DNA of 64,000 nt. Origin: Puerhibacterium puerhi. GTDB lineage: Bacteria; Actinomycetota; Actinomycetes; Actinomycetales; Cellulomonadaceae. The notes below the pieces were generated by a model that worked only from the letters and a program-made list of their open reading frames with translations, made no database searches and was not told the DNA's origin. Location: the NCBI RefSeq assembly GCF_009846865.1, contig NZ_WUWN01000001.1:248001-312000 (forward strand). The letters run 5' to 3'. Shown one piece after another: positions 21,772 through 54,518 of this stretch. Made by a program: the position numbers and the translations under genes. Within the stretch, counting starts at the first letter, position 1, and every line of letters starts with the position of its first letter.

Positions 21772-22787
21772 CAGAATCGTCCACACGGGTCGAGCACCTC
21801 GGTCGAGGTGGGGGTGGGTCGGGTGTTCGCCAGCGGGGTGCCCCACACCGGGTCGCCGTCGGCGTCGAACGGCAGCACCTGGGCGCAGGCGTGGCGGTTG
21901 GGGTCGTACAGCGGGTCGCCGGTGATCTCGGTGTAGGTCCGCGAGTGGTAGACGAGGACGACGCCGCCGTCCGGGGACTCGGTGAACGAGTTGTGGCCGG
22001 GGCCGTACTGGCCGGCCGCCGGGTCGCTGACGAAGACGGGCTCGGGGCTCTTGGCCCACGACGCCGGGTCCAGCAGGTCGGCGTCGGCGTCGGCGGTGAG
22101 CAGGCCCATGGCGTAGTCGATCCCCGTGGCCGAGCCGGAGTACGTCAGGTACAGCCGCCCGTCGCGCTGCAGCACCGACGGGCCCTCGTTGACCCAGAAG
22201 CCCTGGGTCTCCCAGTCGAACTCCGGCCGGCTGAGCAGCACCGCCGGCGTGGCGAGCGTCCACGGGTTCGCCATGCTGGCGATGTAGAGGTTCGAGTGCC
22301 CCTTGATCTCGGCGTCCTGCTGCGCCCACACGAGGTACTGCACGCCGTCGCGCACGAAGCTCGTGGCGTCGAGGGCGAACGACTCCCAGCCGGTGTCGAC
22401 CTGTCCGCGCTCCACCCACGTGCCGGTGAGCGGGTCGGCGTCGGCGCACTCCAGGACGAAGACCCGGTGGTTGAACGTGTCGTCCGAGCCCGGCACGTCG
22501 ACCGTGACGGCGTCGTCGGGCGCGGCGGCGAAGTAGACGTACCACCTCCCGTCGACCCGGTGGATCTCCGGGGCCCAGATCAGGTGGGACTGCGGCCCGG
22601 ACTCGTGACGGCGCCAGATCGTCACCTCCGGCGCCGCCTGGAGATCCTCGAGCCGCTCCGCACGCCGCAGGACGATGCGGTCGTAGAGCGGGTAGGAGCC
22701 GGTGAAGTAGTACTGCCCGTCGTGGCGCAGCACGCACGGGTCGGCGCGCTGGAGCACGATCGGGTTCGCACCGATCTGATCAGTCAT
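21771..22787 (-). CDS. GH43 alpha-L-arabinofuranosidase (exo-arabinanase-like)
   Basis: A 338-residue five-bladed beta-propeller of glycoside hydrolase family 43. The general base Asp is in RADPCVLRHDGQYYFTGS (about D16), the pKa-modulating Asp in ALDATSF, and the general acid Glu in WVNEGPSVL. Length and motifs fit the GH43_26 group of exo-alpha-1,5-arabinofuranosidases. There is no signal peptide, so it is cytoplasmic. The ATG at 22787 has GAGGGG 12 bases upstream. It is the first gene of a two-gene operon with the MFS symporter. A LacI-type operator lies 118 bp upstream, but no regulator gene adjoins it. Confidence 0.88.
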   Translation of the reverse strand: MTDQIGANPIVLQRADPCVLRHDGQYYFTGSYPLYDRIVLRRAERLEDLQAAPEVTIWRRHESGPQSHLIWAPEIHRVDGRWYVYFAAAPDDAVTVDVPGSDDTFNHRVFVLECADADPLTGTWVERGQVDTGWESFALDATSFVRDGVQYLVWAQQDAEIKGHSNLYIASMANPWTLATPAVLLSRPEFDWETQGFWVNEGPSVLQRDGRLYLTYSGSATGIDYAMGLLTADADADLLDPASWAKSPEPVFVSDPAAGQYGPGHNSFTESPDGGVVLVYHSRTYTEITGDPLYDPNRHACAQVLPFDADGDPVWGTPLANTRPTPTSTEVLDPCGRF

Positions 22788-26482: not shown

Positions 26483-26503
26483 TGCGAGCTCCTTCGAGAG
26501 GGG

Positions 26504-27424
26504 TCAGGCGTCCTCGCCCGGCCAGTAGAGGCGCATGGGGTTGTCGACCAGCAGGCGCCGCTGCTGGTCCGCGGTGGTCGCGATCTGCGGGACGTAGTCG
26601 ACGAGCAGCCCGTCGTCGGGCATGTGGTCCGTGAGGTTGGGGTGCGGCCAGTCGGTGCCCCAGAGCACGCGGTCGCCGAACTCCTCGACGACGGTGCGCG
26701 CGAACGGCACCACGTCGCGGTAGGGCCGGCGCTCGCCGTCGAGCGCGCGCGGGCCGGTCGCGGAGAGGCGCTCGGGGCACGAGACCTTGACCCAGACGTC
26801 GTTCGCCTCCACGAACCGCAGGAACCGCGCGAACTGGGGCCCGTCCACGGGCTGGGCGACGTCGGGCCGACCCATGTGGTCGACGACCAACGGCGTGGGC
26901 AGCGAGGCGAAGAAGGGGGCGAGCTCCGCCAGGTCGGCGGCCTCGAAGTAGATCACCACGTGCCAGCCCAGGGGCGCGATCCTGCGGGCGATCGTGGCCA
27001 GCGCGTCCGTGGGCGCGGCGTCCACGAGCCGGCGCACGAAGTTGAAGCGGACGCCCCGCACGCCGGCGTCGTGCAGGCGACGCAGCTCGGCCTCGGGGAC
27101 GTCGGGGCGCACCGTCGCCACGCCACGGGCGCGGCCGCCGGCGGCCTGCAGCGCGTCGACCATGGCGCTGTTGTCGGCACCGTGGCAGGTGGCCTGCACG
27201 ATGACGTTGCGGCTGACCCCCAGGTGGTCACGCAGGGCGAACAGGTCGTCCTTGGACGCGTCGGTGGGGGTGTACTTGCGCTCCGGCGCGTACGGGAAGC
27301 GCGCCGCTGGGCCGAAGACGTGGCAGTGCGCGTCCACGGTGCCCTCGGGCAGCACGAACTGCGGCGTGCTCGGCCCGTGGTACCAGTCGAGCCAGCCGGG
27401 CGTGACCTGGGTGGCGGTGGTCAT
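26504..27424 (-). CDS. ligI: 2-pyrone-4,6-dicarboxylate hydrolase
   Basis: A 306-residue amidohydrolase-2 protein that opens the lactone of 2-pyrone-4,6-dicarboxylate to 4-oxalomesaconate. VDAHCHVFGP (D31, H33, H35) gives the N-terminal His pair. QATCHGADNSAMVDAL, VVDHMGRPD and the catalytic Asp in LWGTDWPHPN are the characteristic LigI motifs; KYTPTDAS is also typical. The ATG at 27424 follows GAGGGGAGGA. It lies 11 bp after ligK. Enzymes of this family do not need a bound metal; that is family knowledge. No PDC-forming dehydrogenase (ligC) is present in the window. Confidence 0.88.
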   Translation of the reverse strand: MTTATQVTPGWLDWYHGPSTPQFVLPEGTVDAHCHVFGPAARFPYAPERKYTPTDASKDDLFALRDHLGVSRNVIVQATCHGADNSAMVDALQAAGGRARGVATVRPDVPEAELRRLHDAGVRGVRFNFVRRLVDAAPTDALATIARRIAPLGWHVVIYFEAADLAELAPFFASLPTPLVVDHMGRPDVAQPVDGPQFARFLRFVEANDVWVKVSCPERLSATGPRALDGERRPYRDVVPFARTVVEEFGDRVLWGTDWPHPNLTDHMPDDGLLVDYVPQIATTADQQRRLLVDNPMRLYWPGEDA

Positions 27425-27435
27425 CGGTCCTCCCC

Positions 27436-28119
27436 TCAGTCGACGTAGCGCAGGCCGGCGGCGGCCAGCGGCTCGCGCATCGCGTACATGTCCAGGCCCA
27501 GCTCGCCGGCGGCGAACCGGGCTCGCTTGCCCTCCTCGGCGGCCTCGCGCCGCGCCGAGGCCGCGGCCACCTCGGCGGCCCGGGCGGAGGGCACGACGAC
27601 GACGCCGTCGGCGTCGGCGACGACGACGTCGCCGGGCGTGACCAGCGCGTTGGCGCACACCACCGGGACGTTGACCGAGCCCAGGGTGGCCTTGACGGTG
27701 CCCTTGGCGTTGATCGCGCGGGAGAACACCGGAAAGTCCATCTCCCGCAGGGCGTCGACGTCGCGGCAGCCGCCGTCGATGACCAGGCCGGCGGCGCCGC
27801 GCGCGCGCAGCGACGTGGCGAGCAGCTCGCCGAAGAACCCGTCCTCGCTCTCGGTGGTGCACGCCGCGACGACGACGTCGCCCGGCTGCACCTGCTCGGC
27901 CGCCACGTGCAGCATCCAGTTGTCGCCCGGCTGCAGCAGGACGGTCACGGCGGTCCCGCAGAGGCGGGCGCCTGCGTAGACGGGACGCAGGTACGGGCGC
28001 ATGAGGCCCAGCCGGCCCATCGCCTCGTGGACGGTGGCGACCCCGAAGGGCCGCAGCGCCTCGACCGCCTCGCGGTCGGCGCGGGTGATCTTCTGGTGGA
28101 CGACGCCCAGCTCGTGCAC
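27436..28119 (-). CDS. ligK: 4-carboxy-4-hydroxy-2-oxoadipate (CHA/HMG) aldolase
   Basis: A 227-residue RraA-fold class II aldolase that splits 4-carboxy-4-hydroxy-2-oxoadipate to pyruvate and oxaloacetate. [47 protein letters not shown] and [14 protein letters not shown] (with the Arg-Asp of the metal and pyruvate site) are all conserved; [20 protein letters not shown] is a signature separating these aldolases from RraA. The GTG at 28119 follows AGGAG. It is 17 bp downstream of ligJ and 11 bp upstream of ligI in one operon. Confidence 0.9.
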
Positions 28120-28136
28120 GTCGGGCTCCTTCCTGC

Positions 28137-29162
28137 TCAGCGGCCCTGGCGGGCCAGTCGGGCGTCGAGGCGCGGGTAGACCGCCCTCGCGTTGCGCTCC
28201 TGCACCGCCACCAGGTCCTGCGGCGACAGCCCGGCCTTCTCGACGTAGCGGCGGGTGTCGTCGAAGTGGTGGCCGGTGCGCGGGTCGACGCCGCGGACGG
28301 CGCCGATCATCTCCGAGGCGAACAGCACGTTCGTCGCCGGGATCACGTCCAGCAGCAGGTCGATGCCGGGCTGGTGGTAGACGCACGTGTCGAAGAAGAC
28401 GTTCCCCAGCAGGTGCTCCTCCGGCTCCGGCTTGCCGAGCGCCTGCGCCAGCCCGCGGAAGCGACCCCAGTGGTAGGGCACCGCGCCGCCGCCGTGCGGC
28501 ACCACGAGCCGCAGCGTGGGGAAGTCGGCGAACAGGTCGCCCTGCAGCAGCTGCATGAACGCCGTGGTGTCGGCGTTGAGGTAGTGCGCGCCCGTGGTGT
28601 GGAAGGCGGCGTTGCAGCTGGTGGAGACGTGCACCATGCCGGGCACGTCGAGCTCGACCATCGTCTCGTAGAGCGGGTACCAGGAGCGGTCCGTCAGCGG
28701 CGGCGAGGTCCAGTGCCCACCCGAGGGGTCCGGGTTGAGGTTCACGGCCACGGCGCCGAGCTCGGTCACGGCCCGCTCCAGCTCTGCCACGCTCGTGGCC
28801 GGGTCGGCGCCCGGCGACTGCGGCAGCATCGCGGCGGGGGCGAACCGGTCGGGGTACAGCTCGGCGACGCGGTGGCACAGGTCGTTGCAGATGCGGGCCC
28901 AGGCCGTCGAGGTCGCCAGGTCGCCCACGTGGTGGGCCATGAACGACGCGCGGGGCGAGAACACCGTGACGTCGATGCCGCGCTCGTCCATCTGGCGCAG
29001 CTGGTTGGCCTCGATGCTCTCGCGGATCTGGTCGTCGCTGATGCGCGGCCCGGCCGGGTCGGGCGCCCGCGTGGGGTCGCCCAGCGCGGCCACCTGGGCG
29101 TCGCGCCACGCGGCGAGCGGCGCGGGCGCGGTCGTGTAGTGGCCGTGGACGTCGATGATCAT
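28137..29162 (-). CDS. ligJ: 4-oxalomesaconate hydratase
   Basis: A 341-residue amidohydrolase-2 protein that hydrates 4-oxalomesaconate to 4-carboxy-4-hydroxy-2-oxoadipate. It begins [20 protein letters not shown], a LigJ hallmark (H6 and H8 as metal ligands), and retains [32 protein letters not shown] and [15 protein letters not shown]. The ATG at 29162 overlaps the stop of galD (ATGA), so translation is coupled. It is unrelated to the Pseudomonas GalB hydratase, which does the same step. The upstream in-frame extension is a shadow of the galD region. Confidence 0.88.
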
Positions 29163-30364
29163 GCGAGGACCTCCGGGGTGGTGCGGGTGGCGGCGGCGTC
29201 GGCGCCCGGGTCCCACACGGCCCGGGGGACGAGCACCTCGCCGACCATGAGCAGGCGGGCGGTGCGCAGCAGCGCGGAGCGGACGACCCGCTGCGGGTCG
29301 GCGGGGTCGAGGCCGAGCGTGACGGAGAACTCGCCCGACGGGTGCTCGACCGAGACGGTGACCTCCGTGCCCTCCACGGGCGTGGCGACGTCGCGCGCCA
29401 CGCTGCCCTCCAGCACGCACGCTGTGGCGGCAGTGACGGCGGCCAGCACGCCGATGGACTGGTGGGCGACGTGCGGGATGAGCGAGCGCGTGGCGATGGT
29501 CCCGCCCGCCCGGGGTGGCGCCACGAGCGTCATCTTCGGATAGTTCCTCGCTCTCACGTCGCCGAGGCCCATGGCCCGCCCGCAGACGAGCCGCAGCCGT
29601 TCGACCCGGTCCCTGAGCCGGTCGTCGGCGTCGATCTCGGCCGGGGTCTCGTAGCCCGTGGCCCCCAGGCGCTCGGCCGCCACGACGACCAGCGGCTGAC
29701 CGTTGTCGATGAGCGTCACGTCGACGTCTCCCAGCCCGTCGACCGCGACGGTGTCCCGCACCCGGCCGGTCGGCAGCAGCGCCCCCGCGACCGATCCCGC
29801 GGTGTCCAGGAAGGCGATCTCGACGGGTGCCGCCGTGCCGGGAACGCCGTCGATGCGGGCGCCACCGCCGTACGCGACGTGCCGCCGAGCGTCCTCCCCC
29901 ACCGGCGTGCGCACGGTGACCTCGGCGACCATCCCCGTGTTGCGCGTCAGCACGCGGGCGGTGGTGGTGTCGCCGCCCGGCGTCACCATCCCGGTCTCGA
30001 TGGCGAACGGCAGCACGGCAGCGAGCATGTTGCCGCAGTTCGGGGTGGTGTCGACCACGTCACCGACGGGCTGCACCTGACCGAACTGCCACTCGACGTC
30101 GACGCCCGGCACGGTGCCGGGACGCACCAGGCCGACCTTGCTCGTCAGCGGGTGGGCTCCGCCCAGGCCGTCGATCTGCCGCGCGTCGGGCGAGCCGAGC
30201 GCGGCGAGCAGGACCGCGTCGCGCGCGGCCGGGTCCGGGGGCAGCAGGCGAGCGTCGAAGAACGGCCCGCGGGACGTGCCTCCGCGCATGAACAGGCACG
30301 GCACGGCGGTCTGGTCGCCGCGCCTGCGGGGCACGGCCACACCGTCCACGGCGTCGGTGGTCAT
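29159..30364 (-). CDS. galD: 4-oxalomesaconate tautomerase (PrpF family)
   Basis: A 401-residue PrpF-type isomerase with two diaminopimelate-epimerase-like halves. The N-terminal [14 protein letters not shown], the catalytic Cys region [17 protein letters not shown] and the C-terminal [20 protein letters not shown] are conserved. In this operon it should interconvert the keto and enol forms of 4-oxalomesaconate between LigI and LigJ. It is the first gene of the five-gene operon and starts at the ATG 30364, with an AGGAGGAA site upstream. Methylaconitate isomerase (PrpF proper) is the alternative, but no methylcitrate genes are near. Confidence 0.85.
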
Positions 30365-39572: not shown

Positions 39573-40451
39573 TCAGCGGCGCACCGCGTCGATCTTGAGC
39601 ATCTTGGCGATCACCGTGTCGAGCTCGGTGTCGTCGAAGATCTGCTTCCAGTCCTCCTTGATGATCTTCTCGCGGCCGTAGCCCATCGCGATGTGGCAGG
39701 CGTCCGAGAAGGGGTTCGAGCCGCGCAGGCCGTTGGTCAGCGCGATCCAGGTGTGGCCCCAGAGCATGGCGCGGGCGGCCTCGCGCGGCACGCCGACCGT
39801 GTTCACGGTCTCCTCGAGGGCCTCGTTGAGGAAGTCGCCGATCATGCAGGCGATGGTCTCGACCAGCGTCGGCTCGAGCACGGCGAGCTGCTTGACGGTG
39901 ACCCAGTGCACCTGGATGACCGGCGCGTACATCGTGGAGATGACGCCCTCGGCGATCGCGCGGACCTCGTCGGAGCCGTTCTCCAGGGCGGCGACGACCT
40001 CCTGCGGGGCGGCGATGCCGCCGAACGTGTCGTCCCACTCCTCCTTGGTGGTGCGCTCGAGGAACACCGACGGGTGGCACGGGTGCGCCACGGCGTAGTG
40101 GATGTCCTCGCGCTGGGCCAGCAGGCCCGCGTAGGCGGCGGCCGGGTCGAGCGTGAGCACGATGGCGCCCGGCTTCATGACCGGCACGACGTCCTCGGAG
40201 ACCGCGCCCAGGACGACGTCCGGCACGGCGAGGATGACGACGTCGGCGGCGCGGGCGGCCTCCAGCGTGTCGGTCACGGTGCGGCCCAGACCCTCGATGC
40301 GCTCGCGGCCGGCCGGGGACGCCTCGGCGTAGAGCGTCGTGTAGTCCTCGCTCTTGGCGAAGTTGTTCGAGACGCGGGTGCCCATCTTGCCGCCGGCGCC
40401 GATCACGGCGACGGTCAGCTGGCCGGTCTCGGTGGGAAGGGTGTCGGTCAT
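39573..40451 (-). CDS. apnO: D-apionate oxidoisomerase
   Basis: A 292-residue NAD-dependent enzyme with an N-terminal Rossmann motif VAVIGAGGKMGTRVSNNFAK and a C-terminal phosphogluconate-dehydrogenase-like (PGDH_C) domain including HPCHPSVF, TVKQLAVLEPTLVE and the GHTWIALTNGL helix. Proteins of this architecture include ApnO, which oxidises and isomerises D-apionate to 3-oxo-isoapionate. The co-encoded decarboxylase and L-erythrulose enzymes support this. The ATG at 40451 overlaps oiaC by ATGA. It is the last gene of the operon. Another beta-hydroxyacid dehydrogenase role is the alternative. Confidence 0.8.
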   Translation of the reverse strand: MTDTLPTETGQLTVAVIGAGGKMGTRVSNNFAKSEDYTTLYAEASPAGRERIEGLGRTVTDTLEAARAADVVILAVPDVVLGAVSEDVVPVMKPGAIVLTLDPAAAYAGLLAQREDIHYAVAHPCHPSVFLERTTKEEWDDTFGGIAAPQEVVAALENGSDEVRAIAEGVISTMYAPVIQVHWVTVKQLAVLEPTLVETIACMIGDFLNEALEETVNTVGVPREAARAMLWGHTWIALTNGLRGSNPFSDACHIAMGYGREKIIKEDWKQIFDDTELDTVIAKMLKIDAVRR

Positions 40452-41293
40452 GACCTGCTCCTGAGGTACTCGATGGTGAGGGTGGTCCACTCCTGCTCGG
40501 TGCGGACCGTGGTCTCGGCGTCGGTCTCGCCGGCGGCGGCGTCCTGCCACGGCAGCCAGAACTCGATCACCTGGTTGATGCCGCGCTCGGCGGGGCGCAG
40601 CACCCGGCGGATGCCGGCGTAGTCCAGCCGGCCCGTGCCGGTCGGGACGCCGGTGTAGTGGAACCCGACCCACCCGTCGGTGCGGGTGAAGCCGAAGTCC
40701 TTGACGTGCCAGCTCCTCGTCCACGGCGCGCAGCGGGCCACGACGTCGTCGGGGTGCTCGAGGTTGGCGACGGTGTTGGCCGGGTCCAGGCAGATGCCCA
40801 GCGCCGGCGAGTCGATCTGCGCCACCAGGTCGACGAGCTCGGCGGAGGAGACCTGCTCGTAGGTCTCCAGCGCGAGGGTCACGCCGGCGGCCTCGTACCG
40901 CGGCAGCACCGCCCGCAGGCGGCGGCGCTGCTCGGCGGCGTCCGGGCGGTCGTCGCCGCTGGTCCACATGGAGCGCACGAGCGTGGCGCCGAGGGCCTCG
41001 GCGACGTGCAGGTACCGCTCCAGGTGGTCCTCGCGGGTGCCGCGGGTGCCGACCTCGAGGGTGATGCCGAGGTCGTCGGCCAGCGCCCGGATCTCGGCCA
41101 GCCGCTCGTCGGACGCGGTGTCGAGCGGCAGGTGGTCGCACACCTGGAACAGCGTCACGCCCTGGGCGGCGGTGTCCCGCAGGACGTCGTCGAGGGTCAT
41201 GGGCGCGGGAGCACGCTCGGACATGCGCCAGAAGTAGGCGTAGGTGCTCAGGCCGATGTCGCTGCCGGTCGCCGTCGCGGGCTGGACGCTCAT
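40448..41293 (-). CDS. oiaC: 3-oxo-isoapionate decarboxylase (AP endonuclease 2 / TIM-barrel)
   Basis: A 281-residue sugar-isomerase-like TIM barrel. Metal ligands of the family are visible in LALETYEQVSS (Glu), GICLDPANTVAN (Asp) and SWHVKDFGFTR (His, Asp); GFHYTGVPTGTGRLDY precedes the final Glu in NQVIEFWLPWQD. Homologues in apionate clusters decarboxylate 3-oxo-isoapionate to L-erythrulose. The ATG at 41293 overlaps the lerI stop and the end overlaps apnO, both by four bases. Without the context it would be called a sugar phosphate isomerase/epimerase. Confidence 0.75.
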   Translation of the reverse strand: MSVQPATATGSDIGLSTYAYFWRMSERAPAPMTLDDVLRDTAAQGVTLFQVCDHLPLDTASDERLAEIRALADDLGITLEVGTRGTREDHLERYLHVAEALGATLVRSMWTSGDDRPDAAEQRRRLRAVLPRYEAAGVTLALETYEQVSSAELVDLVAQIDSPALGICLDPANTVANLEHPDDVVARCAPWTRSWHVKDFGFTRTDGWVGFHYTGVPTGTGRLDYAGIRRVLRPAERGINQVIEFWLPWQDAAAGETDAETTVRTEQEWTTLTIEYLRSRS

Positions 41294-42108
41294 GCGGCCA
41301 CCCCTTCGAGCGCGAGGGCCTCGTCGAGGATCGCGGCGACCGCGGCCGGGTCGTGCGCGAACCGGCCGAGGAACAGGCCGCGGACGCGCCCGGCGCCGCG
41401 GGTCAGCAGGCCCGGGCCGGCGCTGCCGCCGTAGATCACGCGGCTGCCGGCCAGCTCGGGCCGGGCGTCGAGCCAGGCCCGCAGCCCGTCGAGCACGCCG
41501 GCGATGTGCGCGTCGGGGGCCGGGGCCGGGGTGCCGATCGCCCAGACCGGCTCGTACGCCACCAGCACGGGGCCGAGGGCGCCGGCCGCCGCGGCGGCCG
41601 ACAGGTCCGACTCGAGCTGGGCGGTGACGGCGGCCAGGGCCGCGGCCACGGCGCCGTCGGGGACGGCCGGCGCGCTCGCCTCGCCGACGCACAGCAGCGG
41701 CGTCAGGCCGTTGCGCAGGGCGGCGTGGACCTTGTCGGCCACGACCCGGTCGTCCTCGCCGAACAGGCGGCGACGCTCGGCGTGGCCGACCTCGACGAGG
41801 TCGCAGCCGACTTCGCGCAGCTCGCGCCCGGACACCTCGCCGGTGAACGCGCCCTCGTCGGCCCAGGCCAGGTCCTGCGCACCGAGGTGCACCCCGGTGC
41901 CGGCCAGCGCCTCGCGGACGCCCACCAGCGACGGGAACGTCGGCACGACGAACAGGTCGACCAGGCCGCCGGTGACGGCGGGGTGTGCGCGGGCGACGTC
42001 GGCGACGGCGCGGGCCCACTCCAGGGTGCGGGCGTGGCCGAAGTACATCTTCAGCGACACCCCGACCGTGAGGGTCGGCGCGCCGACGGAGGGCCCCGGG
42101 GTCAGCAC
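41290..42108 (-). CDS. lerI: L-erythrulose-1-phosphate isomerase (TIM homologue)
   Basis: A 272-residue triose-phosphate-isomerase fold protein with complete catalytic residues: Lys in [11 protein letters not shown], His in [15 protein letters not shown] and Glu in [11 protein letters not shown]. The usual N-W-K-M is replaced by S-L-K-M, typical of the LerI/EryH branch rather than glycolytic TpiA. It should convert L-erythrulose 1-phosphate to D-erythrulose 4-phosphate. The GTG at 42108 overlaps the derI stop by 7 bp. It lies in the apionate operon, so a housekeeping tpiA must be elsewhere. Confidence 0.85.
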
Positions 42109-42623
42109 GACGCCGCACCCCCGGCGGCGGCCCGCTCCGCCGTCGCGCCGCGCGCGGCCTCGTAGTCGGAGAGCACCTGCACCTTGGCGGCCGAGGCGCT
42201 GGCGGGGTCGAACCGGTAGGTCAGCCACTCGCGCACGAGCCGGCGGGCCAGCTCGAGGCCGACCACCCGCTGGCCCAGGCACAGCACCTGCGCGTCGTTC
42301 GACAGGATCGAGCGCTCGACGGAGAACGAGTCGTGCGCGGTCACAGCCCGGATGCCGGGCACCTTGTTGGCGCTGATCGCCACGCCCAGGCCCGTGCCGC
42401 ACACCAGGACCGCGCGGTCGGCCTCGCCGCGGGCCACCATCTCGGCCGCGGCGATCGCCACCGACGGGTAGGGCGTGTGCGACTCGGCGTCCACGCCCAC
42501 GTCGGCCACCGAGGCGACACCGGCGTGCGCGAGCAGGTCGGCCTTGATGGCCTCCTTGTAGTCGAAGCCGGCGTCGTCCGAGCCGACGACGATCCTGAGC
42601 TGATCGGTCTGGTTGTCGGTCAT
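42102..42623 (-). CDS. derI: D-erythrulose-4-phosphate isomerase (RpiB homologue)
   Basis: A 173-residue RpiB/LacAB-type isomerase. The N-terminal [16 protein letters not shown], the catalytic Cys in [17 protein letters not shown] and [14 protein letters not shown] are conserved. Homologues in erythritol and apionate pathways (EryI/DerI) make D-erythrose 4-phosphate, which enters the pentose phosphate pathway. The ATG at 42623 follows AGGAGGAG, the best ribosome-binding site in the operon, 62 bp after lerK. Plain ribose-5-phosphate isomerase B is the alternative. Confidence 0.85.
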
Positions 42624-42685
42624 GGAGCTCCTCCTGGGGTGATGGCTCGGGTGCGTGGCCCGGGCGGGACTGCTGCGGGCGCCGC

Positions 42686-44407
42686 TCAGGCCGGGACGGC
42701 GAGCGTGTCCAGCACCGCGGCGGTGACGAGCGCGAACGACACGGCACCGGCGTCGGGCGTGCCGACGGCGTGCTCGGCGTGGGTGCGGGCGCGGCCCATC
42801 CGCGGCAGCAGGTCCGCCGTGCCGTCGGCGGCCGCACGGGCCGCGGCGGCGGCGGCGGTCCAGGCGGCGACGAGGTCGTCGCCGGCCTCGACGCGGGCGG
42901 TCAGGGTGGTGTCGAACGGCACCAGGGCGTCGACCATGGTCTTGTCGCCCACCGTGGCGCCGAACGCTCCGATCGCCTCGGTGGCGGCGTGCACGCCGCG
43001 GGCGACGGTTGCGGCGTCGGGCTGCTCGTCGTCCCCGACGACGCGGCCGAGCGCCGCCAGCGCGGCGCCCCACAGGGCCCCGGAGGTGCCGCCGGCCTTG
43101 TCCGACCAGGCGTCGCCGGCCACGGTCAGCACGGTGCCCGCCCCGGCGCCGCGCGCCAGGGCGTCGGCGGTGGCGGCGTCGGCGGCGTGGACGCCGCGCT
43201 GCATGCCGATGCCGTGGTCGCCGTCGCCGGCGACGGCGTCGATCCGGCCCAGCTCGTCGACGTGCTCGTCGATGGTGGCGCGCGCGGCGGCGATCGCCGC
43301 GGCGACCCGGGCGGCGGCCTCGCGCGAGGCGTCCGACGCCGGCGGGATCGGCGTCGCGGCGTCCGCGGCGAGGGTCTCGGCGTCGACGCGCTCGGCCGGC
43401 GCGGCGGCGCCCTTGCGGTAGGCCGGGGCGTCGGCGGGTGCCGCCCACAGCTCCTCGAGCTCGGCGTCCGGCCAGAACAGCGTCAGGGAGACGCCGGCCA
43501 TGTCGAAGCTGGTGACCAGCTCGCCGACCTCGGGCTCGACGACGACCACGCCGGCCGCCTCGAGCAGCTGCTGCACCCGGCGGAAGACGACGAAGAGCTC
43601 CTCGTACTTCACCGAGCCCAGGCCGTTGAGGATCGGCACGACGTGCGCGCCGGGCACCTCGACGCCGTCGGGCACCTCGTCCAGGAGGCGGCCGACCAGC
43701 AGCTCGGCGAGCTCGTCCGCGCTGGGCACGTCGGTCTCGTCGATGCCGCGCTCGCCGTGGATGCCCATGCCCACGGCCATGCGCCCCTCGGGCACGGTGA
43801 ACAGCGGCTCGTCGGCGCCCGGCAGCGAGCAGCCGGAGAAGGCCACGCCGAACGACCGGGTGCGCTCGTTGGCGCGCTCGGCGACGGCGGCGACCTCGTC
43901 GAGGCTGCGGCCCTGCTCGGCCGCCGCGCCGGCGGTCTTGAAGACGCACAGATCCCCGGCGATGCCGCGGCGCTTGTGCCGCTCGTCCACCCCGGCGCTG
44001 GCGACGTCGTCGGTCACCCGGACCGTGCGCACCGCGATGCCCTCGGCCTCCAGCGCGCGCTGGGCGGCGTCGAAGTTCAGCACGTCGCCGGCGTAGTTGC
44101 CGTAGGACAGCAGCACGCCGCCGCCGTGGTGGCTCGCCTTGGCCACCGCGGTGACCTGCTGCGCCGACGGGCTGGCGAAGAGGTTGCCCATCGCGGCGCC
44201 GGCCGCGAGGCCGTGGCCCACGAGGCCGCCGAAGGCCGGGTAGTGGCCCGAGCCACCGCCGATCACGAGGGCGACGGTCCCGGGGGCCGACGTCGTGGCC
44301 CGGGCGACGCCGCCGTGCACGCGCCGCACCCAGCGGCCGTTGGCGGCGACGAACCCGTCGACCATCTCGTCGGCGAACTGCGCCGGGTCGTTGAACAGGC
44401 GCGTCAT
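42686..44407 (-). CDS. lerK: L-erythrulose 1-kinase (fused DhaK-DhaL)
   Basis: A 573-residue single-chain dihydroxyacetone-kinase family enzyme. The DhaK part (1-330) has GGGSGH (50-55) and the covalent substrate-binding His H217 in GMGIHGERG. The DhaL ATP domain (about 360-573) has the metal-binding GDGDHG (394-399) and [16 protein letters not shown]. Next to LerI and DerI homologues the substrate should be L-erythrulose rather than dihydroxyacetone. The ATG at 44407 overlaps the stop of the MFS gene (ATGA). Confidence 0.85.
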
Positions 44408-45786
44408 GCCCGGACCTCCGCGGGGACGTGCTCCTCCTGCGCCGGGCCGGCCGTGGGGTCGTCGGCACGGCCGCGGCGGGCCAGCACGGCCATCAGCACG
44501 GCGGACAGCAGCATGAAGAAGCCGACGATGAACATGGGCGCCTGGTAGCCGCCCGTCCAGTCGCTCACGGCGCCGGTGACGTACGGGGCGGCGAAGCCGG
44601 CCAGGTTGCCGAGGGTGTTGATCAGCGCCACGCCCGCCGCGGCGGCGGCGCCGGTGAGGAACCGGGTGGGCACGGTCCAGAAGTTCGGCAGGGCCGCGAA
44701 GATGGCGCAGGCGGTGACGGCCACCACGGCGATGGTGGCGGCGGGCGACCCCATGAACAGCGCGACCGGGATGCTCACGCCGCCGGCGACGGCGGGGATC
44801 ACGATGTGCCAGGTGCGCAGGCCGCGGCGCGAGGCGTCGCGGGACCAGAACCACAGCACGATCGCCGCGGGCACGTACGGGATCGCCGTGACCAGGCCCT
44901 TCTCGAACAGGTCGAAGGTGGTGCCGAACTGCTCCTGGAAGCCGTCGATGATCGTCGGCAGGAAGAAGCTCAGGGCGTACAGGCCGTAGATGAAGCCGAA
45001 GTACACGAACGCGAGCATCCACACGCGGCCGCTGCCGAACGCGATCTTCAGGCCGCCCTTGGCGTGGTCGCTGCCCGCCTTGCCGGCGTTCTCGGCGGCC
45101 AGCTCGGTCTCGAGCCAGGTCTTCTCCTCGGCGGTCAGCCAGCTCACCTGCGAGGGCTTGTCCTTGAGCACGAAGAGCGTCAGCACGCCGACGACGATGG
45201 CCGGGACGGAGACGCACAGGAACATGAAGCGCCAGCCCTCGAGGCCCAGGGCGGCGTCGTGGGTCATGAGCCAGCCGGCCAGCGGGGAGCCGATGACGTT
45301 GGTCAGCGGCTGGGCCAGGTAGAACAGCGCGAGCATCTTGCCGCGGTGGCGGGCCGGGACCCACATCGACAGGAACAGGATCGCGCCGGGGAAGAACCCG
45401 GCCTCGGCGACGCCGAGCAGGAAGCGCAGGCCCACCAGCTGCGGGTAGTTCTGCACCCACGTGAACAGCAGCGAGACGACGCCCCAGGTGATCATGATCC
45501 GGGCCAGCCAGACGCGGGCCCCGAACCTGTGCAGCGCCAGGTTGGAGGGCACCTCCAGCAGGATGTAGCCGATGAAGAACACGCCCGAGGCGAAGCCGAA
45601 CTGGGCGGCGCTCAGCGCGAGGTCGGCCTCGAGGCCGTTCGGCGCGGCGAAGCCGATCGCGGTGCGGTCGAGGAAGTTGATGAAGAACATCAGGGCCACG
45701 AACGGCACGATGCGGAGCGAGATCTTGCGGATCGTCGACTGCTCGACGGCGGAGGTCTGACGGCCTCCGGGGGCGGGGATGTCCAC
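44404..45786 (-). CDS. MFS transporter, anion:cation symporter type (apionate uptake candidate)
   Basis: A 460-residue twelve-segment major facilitator of the ACS family. [40 protein letters not shown] and [20 protein letters not shown] are family signatures; members import sugar acids (glucarate, galactonate, tartrate). The GTG at 45786 follows GCAGGAG; the frame is open to 45852 without homology. It is the first gene of the operon, coupled by ATGA to the kinase, so it probably imports D-apionate. Confidence 0.86.
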
Positions 45787-45879
45787 GGTGACTCCTGCTT
45801 CAGGTGAACGACGCTGCTCGGGACTCAGCGCTACGACTGTGGCGCGCGGCACCGATCTTGGGTGCGCGACCCCGGACTT

Positions 45880-45893
45880 GTCAACCGGTTGAC
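45880..45893. promoter_or_regulatory. GntR operator, perfect palindrome GTCAACCGGTTGAC
   Basis: A 14-bp perfect palindrome, flanked by TT on the left and CAA on the right, between the apionate operon and its divergent FadR-type regulator. GntR proteins of this class usually bind such GT-N-AC palindromes, so repression in both directions is likely. Confidence 0.75.
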
Positions 45894-45923
45894 CAATCGC
45901 CCTCTCAAAGCATGGGCGCCCGG

Positions 45924-45929
45924 TACGCT
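45924..45929 (+). promoter_or_regulatory. Leaderless-type -10 box TACGCT
   Basis: TACGCT lies six bases before the ATG at 45936 of the FadR-type regulator. Confidence 0.5.
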
Positions 45930-45935
45930 TCCGCC

Positions 45936-46685
45936 ATGCCGGTGTTCAGGGACGACGACCCGCTGAACGTCCGACTCGAGCTCGAGTCGGTGCCCAGCGG
46001 CTCCCCCGCGTCCGTCGTCGCGCGTCAGCTCGTCCAGCTGCTCACCGACGGCGAGCTCGCGCCGGGCTCGCGGCTGCCCTCCGAGCGGCTGCTCGCCGAG
46101 CGCCTCGGCGTCGGCCGCTCGGCCGTGCGGGAGGCCCTCGCCGCGCTCGAGATCCTCGGCATCGTGCACGTGCGGCCCGGGTCCGGGACCTACCTGCAGG
46201 GCGGCACGTCCGACCTGCTGCCCACGACGCTGAGCTGGGGCCTCATGCTGGCCGCGGACCGCACCCGCGAGCTGCTCGAGGTGCGCTCCTCGCTGGAGTG
46301 CACGGCAGCGGTCCTGGCCACTCAGCACGCCACGGACGAGGAGCTGGACCGGCTCACGCACTACCTCGAGCAGCAGGCCGCCAACCTCGACGACCCCGAG
46401 GCGTTCATCGACGCCGACATCCGCTTCCACGTCCAGATCGCCCGGTCGGCGCGCAACGAGGTGCTGGCCGACCTGCTGCAGAGCATGCGCTCCCTGCTGC
46501 GGGTGTGGGTGGACCGCGGCGTGCGCACGCGCGAGAGCACCGAGGCCGCCTACGAGGAGCACCGGCGGGTGCTGGAGGCCATGCGCACGCGCGACCCGGC
46601 AGCGACCGAGGCGGCCATGGGCAGCCACATGGCCACCGCGAGCGCCCGCATCCGCGCGGTCGAGGCGGGCGCCGTCAGCGACTGA
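45936..46685 (+). CDS. FadR/GntR-family regulator of the apionate operon
   Basis: A 249-residue regulator with a winged helix-turn-helix (LPSERLLAERLGVGRSAVRE, followed by LAALEILGIVHVRPGSGTYL) and a C-terminal FCD domain (about 115-245) with the metal-binding residues in AFIDADIRFHVQIARSARNE and EEHRRVLEAMRTRD. The ATG at 45936 was chosen because of the TACGCT box and the absence of a ribosome-binding site. It is divergent from the MFS-led operon and is probably its dedicated repressor, with apionate or a downstream acid as inducer. Confidence 0.9.
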   Translation: MPVFRDDDPLNVRLELESVPSGSPASVVARQLVQLLTDGELAPGSRLPSERLLAERLGVGRSAVREALAALEILGIVHVRPGSGTYLQGGTSDLLPTTLSWGLMLAADRTRELLEVRSSLECTAAVLATQHATDEELDRLTHYLEQQAANLDDPEAFIDADIRFHVQIARSARNEVLADLLQSMRSLLRVWVDRGVRTRESTEAAYEEHRRVLEAMRTRDPAATEAAMGSHMATASARIRAVEAGAVSD

Positions 46686-49623: not shown

Positions 49624-50685
49624 TCAGAAGTCGAAGTCGCCGATGTTGTCCTTGTCGAACACGAACGGGTCGCCGAGGACCACGACGCCGTCCGGCCCCA
49701 CGGTGTACTCCCCGAGCTTGCCGGCCTCGAACGTGTCGCCCTCCTTGCCCGTGATCTCGCCGTTGACCAGCGCCGCCGTGGCGTAGGTGGCGAGGTAGCC
49801 CAGGTCGCCCGGGTTCCACAGGGCGAACGACGTGACCGTGCCGTCCTCGACGTACGGCCGCATCTGGTTGGGGGTGCCCAGCCCCGTCAGGGCGACCTTG
49901 CCCTTGTACTGCGAGTTCTGCAGGTACCGGGCGGCGGCGGCGATGCCCACCGTGGTGGGCGAGACGATGCCCTTGAGGTTCGGGTGGTTCTGCAGCAGCG
50001 CCTCGGTCTCGTCGAAGGACTTCTGGTCCTCGTCGTCGCCGTACACGGTGTCGACGAGCTGGATGTTCGCGTAGTCGGGGTTGTTCTTCAGCTCGTCCTC
50101 CATCATCGCGATCCAGGCGTTCTGGTTGGTCGCGTTGGCGCTGGCGGACAGGATGGCGATCTCGCCCTCGCCGCCGATCTGCTCGGAGATGAGCTCGAGC
50201 TGCTTGGACGCGATGCCCTCGGCCGTGGCCTGGTTGACGAACAGGTCGCGGCAGTCGGGGCTCGTGTCGGAGTCGAAGGTGACCACCTTCGTCCCGGCGT
50301 CGCGCGCCTCGTCGATCGCGTCGCAGATCGCCGTCGGGTCGTTCGCCGAGACGATCAGGCCGCCGACGCCCTGCTGGGCGGCGGTGTTGATGTACTGCAC
50401 CTGGGCGTCCGGGCTGGCCTGCTCGGGCCCGACCTGCTCGATGGACGCGCCCAGCTCCCCGGCCGCCTCCTCCGCCCCGGCCGTGCTGACGTCGAAGTAC
50501 GGGTTGCCGAGGTTCTTCGGGAGCATCGTCAGGGTCAGGTCGCCGCCGCTCTGGCCGCCGCCCGCCCCCGTGGCCTCGCCCCCGCCGCCACCGCCGTCGT
50601 CCCCGCCACCGCAGGCGGCCAGGGTCAGGGCGGCGCTGAGCGTCACGGCGACGAGCGCCGCGCTGCGCTGGGTGTGGAACTTCAT
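49624..50685 (-). CDS. rhaS: Rhamnose-binding lipoprotein of ABC importer
   Basis: A 353-residue type I sugar-binding lipoprotein: signal with lipobox LAAC (Cys25), then a Gly-rich linker of about 25 residues. The mature protein keeps RhaS landmarks: KNLGNPYFDVSTAGAEEAA, GGLIVSANDPTAICDA, ILSASANATNQNAWIAMM, IVSPTTVGIAAAARYLQ, FALWNPGDLGYLATYA and GDPFVFDKDNI. It is the last gene of a four-gene importer, 20 bp after the second permease. LsrB-like autoinducer-2 binding is the nearest alternative. Confidence 0.88.
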   Translation of the reverse strand: MKFHTQRSAALVAVTLSAALTLAACGGGDDGGGGGGEATGAGGGQSGGDLTLTMLPKNLGNPYFDVSTAGAEEAAGELGASIEQVGPEQASPDAQVQYINTAAQQGVGGLIVSANDPTAICDAIDEARDAGTKVVTFDSDTSPDCRDLFVNQATAEGIASKQLELISEQIGGEGEIAILSASANATNQNAWIAMMEDELKNNPDYANIQLVDTVYGDDEDQKSFDETEALLQNHPNLKGIVSPTTVGIAAAARYLQNSQYKGKVALTGLGTPNQMRPYVEDGTVTSFALWNPGDLGYLATYATAALVNGEITGKEGDTFEAGKLGEYTVGPDGVVVLGDPFVFDKDNIGDFDF

Positions 50686-50705
50686 CGTTCTCCCTCTCGC
50701 CTGAG

Positions 50706-51773
50706 TCAGGCGCCGGCGGACGCCGCGCGCCGGGACGAGGTCTCGGGCGCCTCCGCGGAGGACCCGGGCCTCGGACGTCGGAGCCGACCCGACACGTAGG
50801 CCACCAGGGCGCCGGAGACGACCGAGACGATCAGCAGCACCCCGATGACGATGTTAGTGACGTTGACGGTCACGCCCTCGAGCCGCAGCGCGCTGGCGAT
50901 CACGCCGATGAGCACGACGCCCGCGAGCACGCCGTGCAGCCGGCCGCGGCCGCCGAAGATCGACACCCCGCCGAGCAGCACCGCGGCGATCACCTGCAGC
51001 TCCAGGCCGGTGGCGTTGTCGCCGCGGGCGCTGCCGAACCGCAGCGTGAAGTACAGGCCCGCGAACGCCGACACCACCCCGGACAGGACGAACAGCACGA
51101 GCTTCGTGCGCGCCACGTGCACCCCGCTGAACCGGGCGGCCTCCCCGTTCAGGCCGATGTCGTAGACGCCGCGGCCGAACGGGGAGAAGTGCAGCAGCAG
51201 CGTGAACACGACGACCAGCGCCGCGAACGGGACCATGACGAGCGGGACGCTGCTCTCCCCCACGGTGCCGGTGGCCAGGTCGGTCCAGGCCTCGGGGAAG
51301 TCGGTCACGGCGGTGGTCCCCAGCAGCCCGACGGCGACGCCGCGGAAGAGCGCCAGCGTGCCGATCGTCACGGCCAGCGACGGCAGGCCCACGTACGCCA
51401 CGAGGACGCCGTTGAGCGTGCCGCAGGCGGCCCCGACCAGCAGCGCGACGGCGCCGGCGGCGGGGACCGACATCCCGCCCTGGTGCAGCACGCCGAGCAG
51501 CACGCTGCTGAGCCCCACGATGCTCGCCACCGACAGGTCGATCTCCCCGGTGATGATGACCAGCGTCATCGGCAGCGCGATGAGCAGGATCGGCGCGGTG
51601 TCCTGCAGCAGGTACTTCAGGGTGAGCGGGCCGTCGAAGTTCGGCACGGCGGCGAGCGCCCAGCAGATGACCACGACGGTCAGCGCGATGATCGCGGACT
51701 CGCGGGTCAGCAACACCCGCTTCCACAGCGGCTGCGAGTAGGGGGCGTAGGCCCGGGTCGGGGTGCTGCTCAT
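50706..51773 (-). CDS. rhaQ: Rhamnose ABC permease 2
   Basis: A 355-residue permease of the RbsC/RhaQ class with about ten membrane segments. LPMTLVIITGEIDLSVASIV is the typical GxxDLS motif, VLLGGVSIFGGRGRLHGVLA the C-terminal conserved region that contacts the ATPase. It overlaps the other permease by ATGA. The 30-residue C-terminal tail is Ser/Arg/Ala-rich. Confidence 0.85.
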   Translation of the reverse strand: MSSTPTRAYAPYSQPLWKRVLLTRESAIIALTVVVICWALAAVPNFDGPLTLKYLLQDTAPILLIALPMTLVIITGEIDLSVASIVGLSSVLLGVLHQGGMSVPAAGAVALLVGAACGTLNGVLVAYVGLPSLAVTIGTLALFRGVAVGLLGTTAVTDFPEAWTDLATGTVGESSVPLVMVPFAALVVVFTLLLHFSPFGRGVYDIGLNGEAARFSGVHVARTKLVLFVLSGVVSAFAGLYFTLRFGSARGDNATGLELQVIAAVLLGGVSIFGGRGRLHGVLAGVVLIGVIASALRLEGVTVNVTNIVIGVLLIVSVVSGALVAYVSGRLRRPRPGSSAEAPETSSRRAASAGA

Positions 51774-52846
51774 GCGACGTCCCTCGCTCGGACGAGCCTG
51801 CGCGCCTGGCGTGCCGCCAGCACGCGGTCCAGCACGATCGCGCCCAGGATCAGGGCGCCCCACACGGCGCGCTGCCAGAAGTCGGCGATGCCGAGGCTCG
51901 GCAGCGCCCGGTTGATGGTCACCAGCAGGAACGCGCCGATCGCGGCGCCCCACACGGTGCCGCTGCCGCCGAAGATGGCCACGCCGCCGATGACGACGGC
52001 GGCCACCGCCTGCAGCTCGAACCCGGAGCCGACGCTCGAGCTCACCGTGCCGTAGCGGGCCGTGTACACCACGCCGGCGAGCCCGGCGAGCGCCCCGCTG
52101 AGCACGAACGCGGCCATCACGCGGCGCCGGACGCCCAGGCCGTACAGCAGCGCGGCGTCGGGGTCCGACCCGATGGCGTACAGCTCCCGCCCGCCGCGGG
52201 CGGTGTACAGGTAGTAGCCGACGACGGCGAGCACGGCCAGCGCCACGAGCGTGAGCACCGGGACGGTCAGCACCGACCGGTTGGCCAGCGCGAGGAACCC
52301 GGCCGGCAGGTCGCCGGCGTTGATCCGCTCGCTGCCGGCCCAGGTCAGCATGATGCCGCGGTAGGCGTACAGCGTGCCCAGGGTGATGACGAGCGACGGC
52401 ACCCGGGCGAGCGAGACGAGCACGCCGTTGACGAGCCCGAGCAGCGCCCCGGCGGCCAGGCCGGCGGCGAAGACGACGACGACCGGGATGCCGGGCACGT
52501 CGATGAACAGCCGCCCGGTGAGGTAGGCCGTCAGGGCCATCACCGAGCCGACGGACAGGTCGACGTTGCGGGTGATGATCACCGTGGCCTGCCCGACGGC
52601 GAGCAGCAGCAGGATCGAGGGGTTGAGCAGGAAGTTGCGCCAGCCGTCGGCGCTGAACAGGAAGCCGCTGTTGCGGGCGGTGGCGGCGACGACGACGGCG
52701 ACCAGCACGAGGAAGATCGACAGCTCGCGCGAGCGCAGCACCACCCCCAGCACCCGGCGTCCGCGCGAGAGCCTGCTGGGCTCGACGAGCAGCGCCTCGG
52801 AGGTCGACGCCTCGGCGCCCTCGTCGTGCCGCAGGGGCTGGCTCAT
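51770..52846 (-). CDS. rhaP: Rhamnose ABC permease 1
   Basis: A 358-residue RbsC-class permease. AVGQATVIITRNVDLSVGSV is the DLS motif and VIGGVAIFGGSGTVWGAAIG the conserved C-terminal segment. The first 40 residues are cytoplasmic and acidic/Ser-rich. ATGA overlaps join it to the ATPase upstream and to permease 2 downstream; together the two form the membrane channel. Confidence 0.85.
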   Translation of the reverse strand: MSQPLRHDEGAEASTSEALLVEPSRLSRGRRVLGVVLRSRELSIFLVLVAVVVAATARNSGFLFSADGWRNFLLNPSILLLLAVGQATVIITRNVDLSVGSVMALTAYLTGRLFIDVPGIPVVVVFAAGLAAGALLGLVNGVLVSLARVPSLVITLGTLYAYRGIMLTWAGSERINAGDLPAGFLALANRSVLTVPVLTLVALAVLAVVGYYLYTARGGRELYAIGSDPDAALLYGLGVRRRVMAAFVLSGALAGLAGVVYTARYGTVSSSVGSGFELQAVAAVVIGGVAIFGGSGTVWGAAIGAFLLVTINRALPSLGIADFWQRAVWGALILGAIVLDRVLAARQARRLVRARDVA

Positions 52847-54417
52847 GACGCGGCCTCCGTGGGTGCGACGTCGGACGGCCGGTGCCCCTGCAGCCCGGCC
52901 GCGTGGTGCCCCGGGTGCTGCGTCGCGGCGAGCATGACCGCCTCGGGGGTGGCCTCCTCGCGCGCCAGGTCGGCCGTGATGCGCCCCTCCGCCACGACGA
53001 GCACCCGGTCGGCCATGCCGAGCACCTCGGGCAGCTCGGACGAGATCATGAGGATGGCGATCCCGCGCCCGGCCAGCTCCGACAGCAGCCGGTGGACCTC
53101 CGCCTTGGTGCCGACGTCGATCCCGCGGGTGGGCTCGTCGATGATCAGCAGCCGCGGCTCGGTGGCCAGCCACTTGGCGATGACCACCTTCTGCTGGTTG
53201 CCGCCGCTCATCGTGGTCGCGTGCATGTCGAGCGCGCCCGTCTTGACCTCGAGCCGCGAGGCCCACGGCGCGGCGGCGGCGTTCTCGGCGCGCGCCGTGA
53301 GCAGGCCCAGCCGGGCCAGGCTCCCGCGGATCACCCCGGCGACGTTGCGGGACACGGACGCGTCGATCACCAGGCCCTGGCGGCGGCGGTCCTCGGGCAC
53401 GAACGCCATGCCGGCCTCGATGGCCGCGCGCGGGCTGCCGGGCGGCACGGGTTTGCCGGCCAGGCGCACCGACCCGGCGTCGTAGCGGTCGACGCCGAAG
53501 ACGGCCCGGGCGATCTCGCTGCGCCCGGCCCCGACCAGCCCGGCGAGGCCGACGATCTCGCCGGCCCGGACGGTGAAGGACACGTCCTGGAACACCCCGG
53601 CCGAGGTCAGCCCCTGCACCTCGAGCACCGGGTCCCCGAGCGCGGCGGGCGTCTTGGGGAACAGCTCGGCGACGTCCCGCCCCACCATCGCCGCGACGAT
53701 CCGGTCCACCGACGTGCTGGCGGTCGGGTGCGTGGCGACGTACTCGCCGTCGCGCATCACGGTGACCGTGTCGCACAGCGCGAACACCTCGTCGAACCGG
53801 TGGGAGATGAACACCAGCGCCCGGCCCTCGTCGCGCAGGCTGCGGGCGACGGCGAACAGGCGCTCGACCTCGACGCCGCTGAGCGCCGCGGTCGGCTCGT
53901 CCATGATCAGCAGGCGCGCGTCGAGGGAGATGGCCTTGGCGATCTCGATGATCTGCTGGTCGGCGATCGACAGGCCCTCGGCCTTGCGGCGGGGGTCGAT
54001 GCGCACCCCGAGGCGCTCGAAGAGCCGGGCCGCCTCGGCGTACATCGCGGCGCGGTCGATCCGGCGCAGGGCGCCGAGCGGGTGGCGGCCCATGAAGATG
54101 TTCTCGGTGACCGACAGGTCGGGGAAGAGCGTGGGCTCCTGGTATATCACCGCCACGCCGTGCGCCTTGGACTCCGCCGTCGAGCCGAAGTCGACGGGCC
54201 GCCCGTCGAGCAGCAGCTCGCCGCCGTCGCGCCGGTACACCCCGGCCACGATCTTCACGAGGGTCGACTTGCCCGCACCGTTCTCCCCCACCAGGGCGTG
54301 GATGGAGCCGGGCGCGACGACGAGCGTGCCGGACCGCAGGGCGACCACCGGTCCGAACGCCTTGCGCACGCCACGCAGCTCCAGCGTGGGCACCACGTCA
54401 GCGGGGTGCTCCGCCAT
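52843..54417 (-). CDS. rhaT: Rhamnose ABC ATPase (two nucleotide-binding domains)
   Basis: A 524-residue sugar ABC ATPase with two cassettes. The first has Walker A VGENGAGKSTLVKI, signature LSIADQQIIEIAKA and Walker B LLIMDEPTAAL. The second has a degenerate Walker A (GLVGAGRSEIARAV), signature TMSGGNQQKVVIAKW and LLIIDEPTRGID, as usual in the RbsA/RhaT class. The ATG at 54417 follows GGGAGGGG; it heads the operon. The C-terminal 25 residues are His/Pro-rich. Confidence 0.9.
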   Translation of the reverse strand: MAEHPADVVPTLELRGVRKAFGPVVALRSGTLVVAPGSIHALVGENGAGKSTLVKIVAGVYRRDGGELLLDGRPVDFGSTAESKAHGVAVIYQEPTLFPDLSVTENIFMGRHPLGALRRIDRAAMYAEAARLFERLGVRIDPRRKAEGLSIADQQIIEIAKAISLDARLLIMDEPTAALSGVEVERLFAVARSLRDEGRALVFISHRFDEVFALCDTVTVMRDGEYVATHPTASTSVDRIVAAMVGRDVAELFPKTPAALGDPVLEVQGLTSAGVFQDVSFTVRAGEIVGLAGLVGAGRSEIARAVFGVDRYDAGSVRLAGKPVPPGSPRAAIEAGMAFVPEDRRRQGLVIDASVSRNVAGVIRGSLARLGLLTARAENAAAAPWASRLEVKTGALDMHATTMSGGNQQKVVIAKWLATEPRLLIIDEPTRGIDVGTKAEVHRLLSELAGRGIAILMISSELPEVLGMADRVLVVAEGRITADLAREEATPEAVMLAATQHPGHHAAGLQGHRPSDVAPTEAAS

Positions 54418-54433
54418 CGCCCCTCCCAGGAGT

Positions 54434-54518
54434 GAACCGATACAGCGGATCTGCGCACCGTAGGTTCCCCGGTCCCGCGGCGTCAATGATCGCGCCGGTC
54501 ACGGCTCTGTACCGGTTC
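54434..54518. promoter_or_regulatory. Inverted pair of operator-like sites upstream of the rhamnose importer
   Basis: GAACCGATACAG (54434-54445) and, inverted, GAACCGGTACAG (54507-54518 read on the other strand) match at 11 of 12 positions and lie 61 bp apart. They bracket the presumed promoter of the importer. No regulator gene adjoins the operon, so control is by a distant (DeoR/LacI-type) protein. Confidence 0.55.

Follow-up and report, generated by a model that had tools for sequence, protein, structure and literature searches.

In the D-apionate pathway reportedly described by Carter et al. in 2018, the substrate is degraded by the enzymes ApnO-OiaC-LerK-LerI-DerI, and MetaCyc carries the pathway name 'D-apionate degradation I, xylose isomerase family decarboxylase'. 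Upstream of this route act ApsD, the apiose dehydrogenase, which belongs to the Gfo/Idh proteins, and ApnL, the D-apionate lactonase. Here we examined a 64,000-nucleotide stretch of the Puerhibacterium puerhi genome (contig NZ_WUWN01000001.1, positions 248,001 to 312,000; hereafter the window, in whose numbering positions are given), which holds a six-gene operon with a divergent regulator gene. We put at about 0.82 the probability that it serves the catabolism of D-apionate, lacks the apiose-oxidising half and was probably gained by horizontal transfer.

The work of Carter et al. (2018; Nat Chem Biol 14:696) is briefly described in PMC6302742. According to PMC11747546, a strain of the Rhodobacteraceae grows on D-apiose and has a gene cluster whose annotations are apionolactonase, apiose dehydrogenase, apionate oxidoisomerase, 3-oxo-isoapionate kinase and phosphate decarboxylase. 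No description of the present operon was found in the literature on apiose and apionate, most subscription papers being outside the search, and a literature search for 'apiose dehydrogenase' found no papers.

The operon and its predicted enzymes

The preliminary description of this DNA had listed six overlapping or closely spaced genes of defined families, a FadR-type regulator gene and a palindromic operator. The coordinates and Pfam matches agree with it on each of these points, and all seven products exceed the gathering scores in a Pfam scan. The features, which include a homologue of triosephosphate isomerase (TIM) and a transporter of the major facilitator superfamily (MFS), are as follows:

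39573-40451, minus strand: ApnO-like, putative D-apionate oxidoisomerase; Rossmann and PGDH_C domains, 292 aa; PF16896 at 203 bits
40448-41293, minus strand: OiaC-like, putative 3-oxo-isoapionate decarboxylase; xylose-isomerase-like TIM barrel, 281 aa; PF01261
41290-42108, minus strand: LerI-like, putative L-erythrulose-1-phosphate isomerase; TIM homologue, 272 aa, GTG start; PF00121
42102-42623, minus strand: DerI-like, putative D-erythrulose-4-phosphate isomerase; RpiB homologue, 173 aa; PF02502
42686-44407, minus strand: LerK-like, putative L-erythrulose kinase; DhaK-DhaL fusion, 573 aa; PF02733 and PF02734
44404-45747, minus strand: MFS transporter, probably for apionate uptake; PF07690; an upstream start, extending the gene to 45852, is possible
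45880-45893, no strand: operator-like palindrome GTCAACCGGTTGAC, 14 bp, between the FadR gene and the operon
45936-46685, plus strand: divergent FadR/GntR-FCD regulator; PF07729 and PF00392

The genes are transcribed on the minus strand in the order MFS transporter, DhaK-DhaL fusion, RpiB homologue, TIM homologue, TIM barrel and PGDH_C dehydrogenase, with overlaps of 4, 4, 7 and 4 bp and a single gap of 62 bp. The reactions and the substrate proposed for them are drawn from knowledge of the families. The MFS protein would import apionate, and ApnO would oxidise it with NAD and shift its hydroxymethyl group to give 3-oxo-isoapionate, which OiaC, probably a metal-dependent enzyme, would decarboxylate to L-erythrulose. 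LerK would then phosphorylate this product to L-erythrulose 1-phosphate, and LerI and DerI would isomerise the latter via D-erythrulose 4-phosphate to D-erythrose 4-phosphate, which would enter the pentose phosphate pathway. Repression of the operon is probably the task of the FadR-type protein, acting from the palindrome until a pathway compound releases it.

The ApnO-like protein is the sole PF16896 match in its genome and matches PDB 5t57, deposited as 'semialdehyde dehydrogenase NAD-binding protein', at 216 bits (phmmer). The oxidoisomerase step is assigned at the family level, the protein belonging to the same family as the one that adjoins OiaX and OiaK in Cupriavidus necator. In a set of 88 ApnO proteins, three of them from the clade of C. 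necator, S. medicae and Salipiger, 61 positions including H123, H126, H182, E193, E198 and H233 are conserved in at least 87. The N-terminus weakly resembles ketol-acid reductoisomerases; as a mere suggestion, this would fit an oxidation coupled to the migration of a carbon group. For OiaC, an AlphaFold2 model (mean predicted local distance difference test score 92.4, from a 24-row alignment) has as its nearest solved folds the isomerase Art22 (best Z 28.1) and D-tagatose/D-psicose 3-epimerases (Z about 25), the whole group spanning Z 24-28. Its residues E143, D170, H196 and E244, which we take to stand where the xylose-isomerase-like fold normally has its metal ligands, are conserved in 88/88 sequences.

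The LerI-like protein carries S-L-K-M at the active site, as the preliminary description had stated: Ser replaces the catalytic Asn11, whereas Lys, His and Glu are retained. An alignment of 75 proteins (the one from the window, two others of the same genome and those from the 72 loci with coverage above 80%, locus L071 being among those left out) has Ser at this position in 74; the single Asn belongs to the canonical TIM that the genome retains separately on another contig. In a PDB search, 3s6d, a 'putative triosephosphate isomerase', came first and 11ef, an 'L-erythrulose-1-phosphate isomerase', second (3e-38). The DerI-like protein, one of four RpiB homologues in the genome, passes three curated models of the ribose-5-phosphate isomerase/RpiB type, for example TIGR02133 (210 bits, cut-off 168). 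Judged by its sequence, the LerK-like kinase is a DhaKL fusion of ordinary type, passing NF011049 ('dihydroxyacetone kinase family protein') at 725 bits. The best NCBIfam match of the MFS protein is the D-galactonate transporter model TIGR00893, at 275 bits, under the cut-off of 395.

Conservation of the gene set and evidence for apionate

To place the operon among its relatives, genome contigs were scanned with an OiaC profile. The scan gave 246 confirmed loci, of which the best 80 (24 from Curtobacterium) were analysed; these are the closest by the profile, and more distant members lie outside the sample. ApnO (at least 50% identity) lies within 9 kb of OiaC in 78 of the 80 loci and immediately behind it on the same strand in 73. 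Sixty-six loci are adequately covered, their sequence reaching 5.9 kb or more upstream of OiaC and 1 kb or more beyond it downstream; among them LerI, DerI and LerK occur in 59 each, the MFS gene in 56 and the FadR gene (at least 45% identity) in 53, and ApnO, LerI, DerI, LerK and MFS are all present in 51. Plasmids of Erwinia and Pantoea share the same six genes, with ApnO 64-67% and OiaC 50-51% identical to those of the window. At E 1e-30, OiaC was found in 3 of 150 genomes of the window's family and in 4 of 396 genomes of the phylum sample, counts that include the window's own genome; a genome of the same genus (G003) also carries it.

The preliminary description had recognised the apionate route from ApnO to DerI in these genes, and ApnL homologues, a shared operator and MFS and ApnO genes linked to OiaX and OiaK speak for this reading. 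ApnL homologues were found in 38 of the 80 loci, within fetched stretches that extend at most 10 kb to either side. The palindrome GTCAACCGGTTGAC has one exact copy in the window's 3.9-Mb genome. It stands before the FadR gene in relatives that have this gene, exactly in 34/56 and with at most two mismatches in 46/56, and it also precedes ApnL or a short-chain dehydrogenase/reductase (SDR) gene in 19 of the 38 loci with ApnL, namely 15 from Curtobacterium, 3 from Rathayibacter and 1 from another member of the Microbacteriaceae. When 20 palindromes made from shuffled halves were used as a control, 19 of them hit no locus and one hit a single locus; likewise, the exact palindrome occurs 35 times in 1.46 Mb of the relatives' loci and 12 shuffled controls not at all.

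On plasmid pBB1 of C. necator, a FadR-type gene, an MFS gene and an ApnO homologue (the latter two 66% and 42% identical to those of the window) stand in a row with an OiaX-type RuBisCO-like protein and OiaK, which reach 443 and 768 bits, respectively, against models with cut-offs of 700. This ApnO homologue matches PDB 5t57 at 610 bits over 276 residues. Because MFS and ApnO lie here beside OiaX and OiaK, the transporter and the first enzyme would be common to two branches that part after 3-oxo-isoapionate. In Halotalea and Salinicola, an OiaC-ApnO pair of the window's type lies near ApnL homologues and a Gfo/Idh protein 55% identical to that of Salipiger; no NCBIfam model names the Gfo/Idh proteins of these three genera apiose dehydrogenase.

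Several results weigh against this reading. Fifteen of the 66 covered loci are without one or more partners, for instance LerK, LerI and DerI in Halotalea, Salinicola and three Microbacterium loci, and two loci have OiaC without ApnO within 9 kb (L087 from Betaproteobacteria bacterium MS502-56 and L032 from Curtobacterium MCBD17_013). The three ApnL homologues of the 38 that were scanned against NF049900, the D-apionate lactonase model, scored 181, 219 and 395 bits, far under its curated cut-off of 750; the Salipiger homologue that served as the first query scores 633 bits against the D-apionate lactonase model. The palindrome is absent from all examined Erwiniaceae and Halomonadaceae loci and from some actinobacterial ones, and 19 of the 38 ApnL loci lack it before ApnL or the SDR gene. 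In addition, no NCBIfam model names the ApnO and OiaC of the window, and the RpiB homologue misses the DerI model NF051858 (144 bits, cut-off 240). Since it passes ribose-5-phosphate isomerase models, its assignment as DerI rests on context. Finally, a long branch separates OiaC-linked from OiaK-linked ApnO in the ApnO tree, and OiaC shares its fold with isomerases and epimerases, so the fold gives no proof of decarboxylation.

The long branch bears on the alternative that survives best, namely that the operon breaks down some other sugar acid, branched or linear, such as a further stereoisomer of apionate or a C5 acid akin to it, by an oxidation, a decarboxylation and erythrulose steps of the same type. 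The ApnO of the window is just 41-43% identical to the homologues of C. necator, S. medicae and Salipiger across this branch. Moreover, the genome holds a parallel operon in which LerK, LerI and DerI homologues accompany another dehydrogenase and another TIM barrel, so that further acids may draw on the erythrulose module. However, ApnL homologues lie near the relatives' genes and are linked to the operator, an MFS gene of the same type stands beside OiaX and OiaK, and the six His and Glu residues of ApnO listed above are kept in at least 87 of the 88 proteins, three of which are from the other clade. We therefore regard a different acid as unlikely.

In a second alternative, the OiaC-like TIM barrel would act as an isomerase or epimerase, and CO2 would leave the 3-oxo acid either spontaneously or on ApnO. 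This would agree with the nearest folds (Art22, Z 28, and the 3-epimerases) and with the four kept positions that we take for metal ligands. Yet the entry of a C5 acid into a C4 kinase/isomerase set requires a decarboxylation, and OiaC directly precedes ApnO in the 73 relatives counted above, even where LerK, LerI and DerI are not nearby; this alternative seems to us quite improbable. Least probable is an operon for erythritol or L-erythrulose with the PGDH_C protein as a polyol dehydrogenase: although the LerK, LerI and DerI steps are also described for erythritol-type compounds and the name of 11ef points the same way, a Pfam scan found no polyol kinase family in the operon, and in loci L078, L085 and L091 ApnO-OiaC occurs with an ApnL homologue where LerK, LerI and DerI are not nearby. 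Overall, D-apionate catabolism remains the preferred reading.

The missing upper half, the origin of the operon and neighbouring loci

The absence of an apiose dehydrogenase and lactonase, which the preliminary description had noted for these genes, holds genome-wide and not just within the window. In this assembly (94 contigs, rated 100% complete), a Curtobacterium ApnL query found no match, nor did it in G003, while the four carriers among the six searched genomes all matched. The SDR linked to ApnL has no close copy in the window's genome (38-43% identity, vs 66-72% in carriers), and a Gfo/Idh query of the ApsD type had a best match of 33% there, in a search run with no positive control. 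The pair of ApsD and ApnL that a complete D-apiose pathway needs was thus not detected in the genome. As neither ApnL nor a close copy of its linked SDR was detected, apionate, or a compound oxidised by another enzyme, is the likely entry point, and we consider apionate itself the likely one.

Among the 80 loci, this SDR (at least 60% identity) occurs in 32 (e.g. L022:13438-14181 of Curtobacterium), and an ApnL homologue accompanies it in all 32, mostly as its direct neighbour but up to about 3 kb away in L088; six further loci have ApnL without the SDR. This tie does not hold genome-wide, with the copy of genome G547 lying on another contig and a second copy elsewhere in G546. An ApsD-type Gfo/Idh protein (at least 45%), by comparison, occurs in only 2 of the 80 loci. 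The ApnL-linked SDR is our best candidate for the apiose dehydrogenase of actinobacteria. As a tentative picture to which we give rather less than even odds, actinobacteria would oxidise apiose by an SDR unrelated to the Gfo/Idh-type ApsD, encoded near a diverged ApnL and often under the same FadR operator, and the lineage of the window would have horizontally acquired the lower half only, scavenging apionate freed by its neighbours in a plant-degrading community.

The ApnO phylogeny was examined in a 31-row tree, in which the window and Isoptericola variabilis JZ7 (L012) group with two Curtobacterium and a metagenome-assembled genome (MAG) of Actinomycetales (support 99/97), while a genome of the same family as the window (G076) groups with Microbacterium. 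A tree uniting the three same-family rows was rejected (p 6e-70), as was one uniting 14 Microbacteriaceae rows to the exclusion of the window, L012, G076 and the MAG L015 (p 2e-42); both tests concern this single gene and groups picked after the tree was seen, and L015 may itself be a member of the Microbacteriaceae. The nesting of the window among Microbacteriaceae suggests that the operon was probably acquired horizontally, and at least two such acquisitions in the window's family would be the simplest reading.

Within its own genome, the 10-base core of the operator is not enriched, with two places versus two for the reversed control; the second place is on contig C6. A one-mismatch copy on contig C31 was considered as a second member of the regulon and rejected, since it falls within a reading frame read as UDP-galactopyranose mutase.

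The parallel operon (L110:5555-12002, that is G000:C1:229555-236002) lies 12-18 kb before the window start. It encodes an MFS transporter, a dehydrogenase of the 3-hydroxyacyl-CoA-dehydrogenase family, a Ser-type TIM, RpiB, DhaKL and a 309-aa xylose-isomerase-like TIM barrel. It is not a plain duplicate of the apionate operon, as its dehydrogenase and TIM barrel differ, and neither of these two passes a curated NCBIfam cut-off. It may be a candidate route for another C5 sugar acid, leading through 3-oxidation and decarboxylation to erythrulose. In Nesterenkonia sp. F, relatives of its dehydrogenase (68%) and TIM barrel (61%) lie about 5.5 kb behind an ApnO-OiaC pair (L071:17183-19142), and the 20.8-kb locus has one LerK/LerI/DerI set, as if two acids used one erythrulose module. 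On plasmids of Shinella and Paracoccus (L130 and L131), relatives of the TIM barrel (52-53%) occur with a dihydroxyacetone-kinase-family gene, a PdxA-annotated dehydrogenase and a tripartite tricarboxylate transporter.

The preliminary description had also seen a plant-cell-wall theme in the window. Such genes are indeed present, at 4016-6181, 6995-8548 and 21771-22787, but they are of the xylan type (GH67, GH39 and GH43) and not specific to rhamnogalacturonan II. The ABC transporter at 49624-54486 was rejected as an apiose importer; its binding protein (Peripla_BP_4) shares just 21-26% identity with the binding proteins, presumably for apiose, that relatives encode close to ApnL or ApsD-type genes. 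At 25121-30364, a row of MFS, amidohydrolase (PF04909), RraA-like and PrpF genes possibly forms an aromatic-acid catabolic cluster.

Comparison with known systems

The operon resembles the ApnO-OiaC-LerK-LerI-DerI pathway in that all five enzyme families are encoded in one operon together with a transporter and a regulator. It differs in being actinobacterial, in having a FadR/GntR-type regulator where Erwiniaceae have a SorC-type one, and in that neither an apiose dehydrogenase nor a lactonase was detected in its genome. The enterobacterial operon (Pantoea sp. At-9b pPAT9B04 and Erwinia sp. E602) encodes the same six proteins in the arrangement MFS-LerK-LerI-OiaC-ApnO-SorC, with a divergent RpiB gene whose product is 46-47% identical to that of the window. 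In the OiaK-OiaX branch with its RuBisCO-like protein (C. necator N-1 pBB1 and Salipiger profundus pTPRO1), the ApnO homologues are 42-43% identical to that of the window and the 66% identity of the MFS protein applies to C. necator, where OiaK and OiaX replace the window's OiaC-LerK-LerI-DerI; for pTPRO1, OiaK and ApnL homologues were matched in a model scan of those two.

The chemistry of the pathway is thus already known, and what is newly added here is the predicted operator and the SDR near ApnL as a candidate apiose dehydrogenase. These results widen the range of this plant-sugar pathway, itself of recent description, to numerous actinobacteria, and the predicted operator and regulon make the substrate directly testable. 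They also suggest that apionate, besides apiose, may be exchanged among microbes on plant cell walls.

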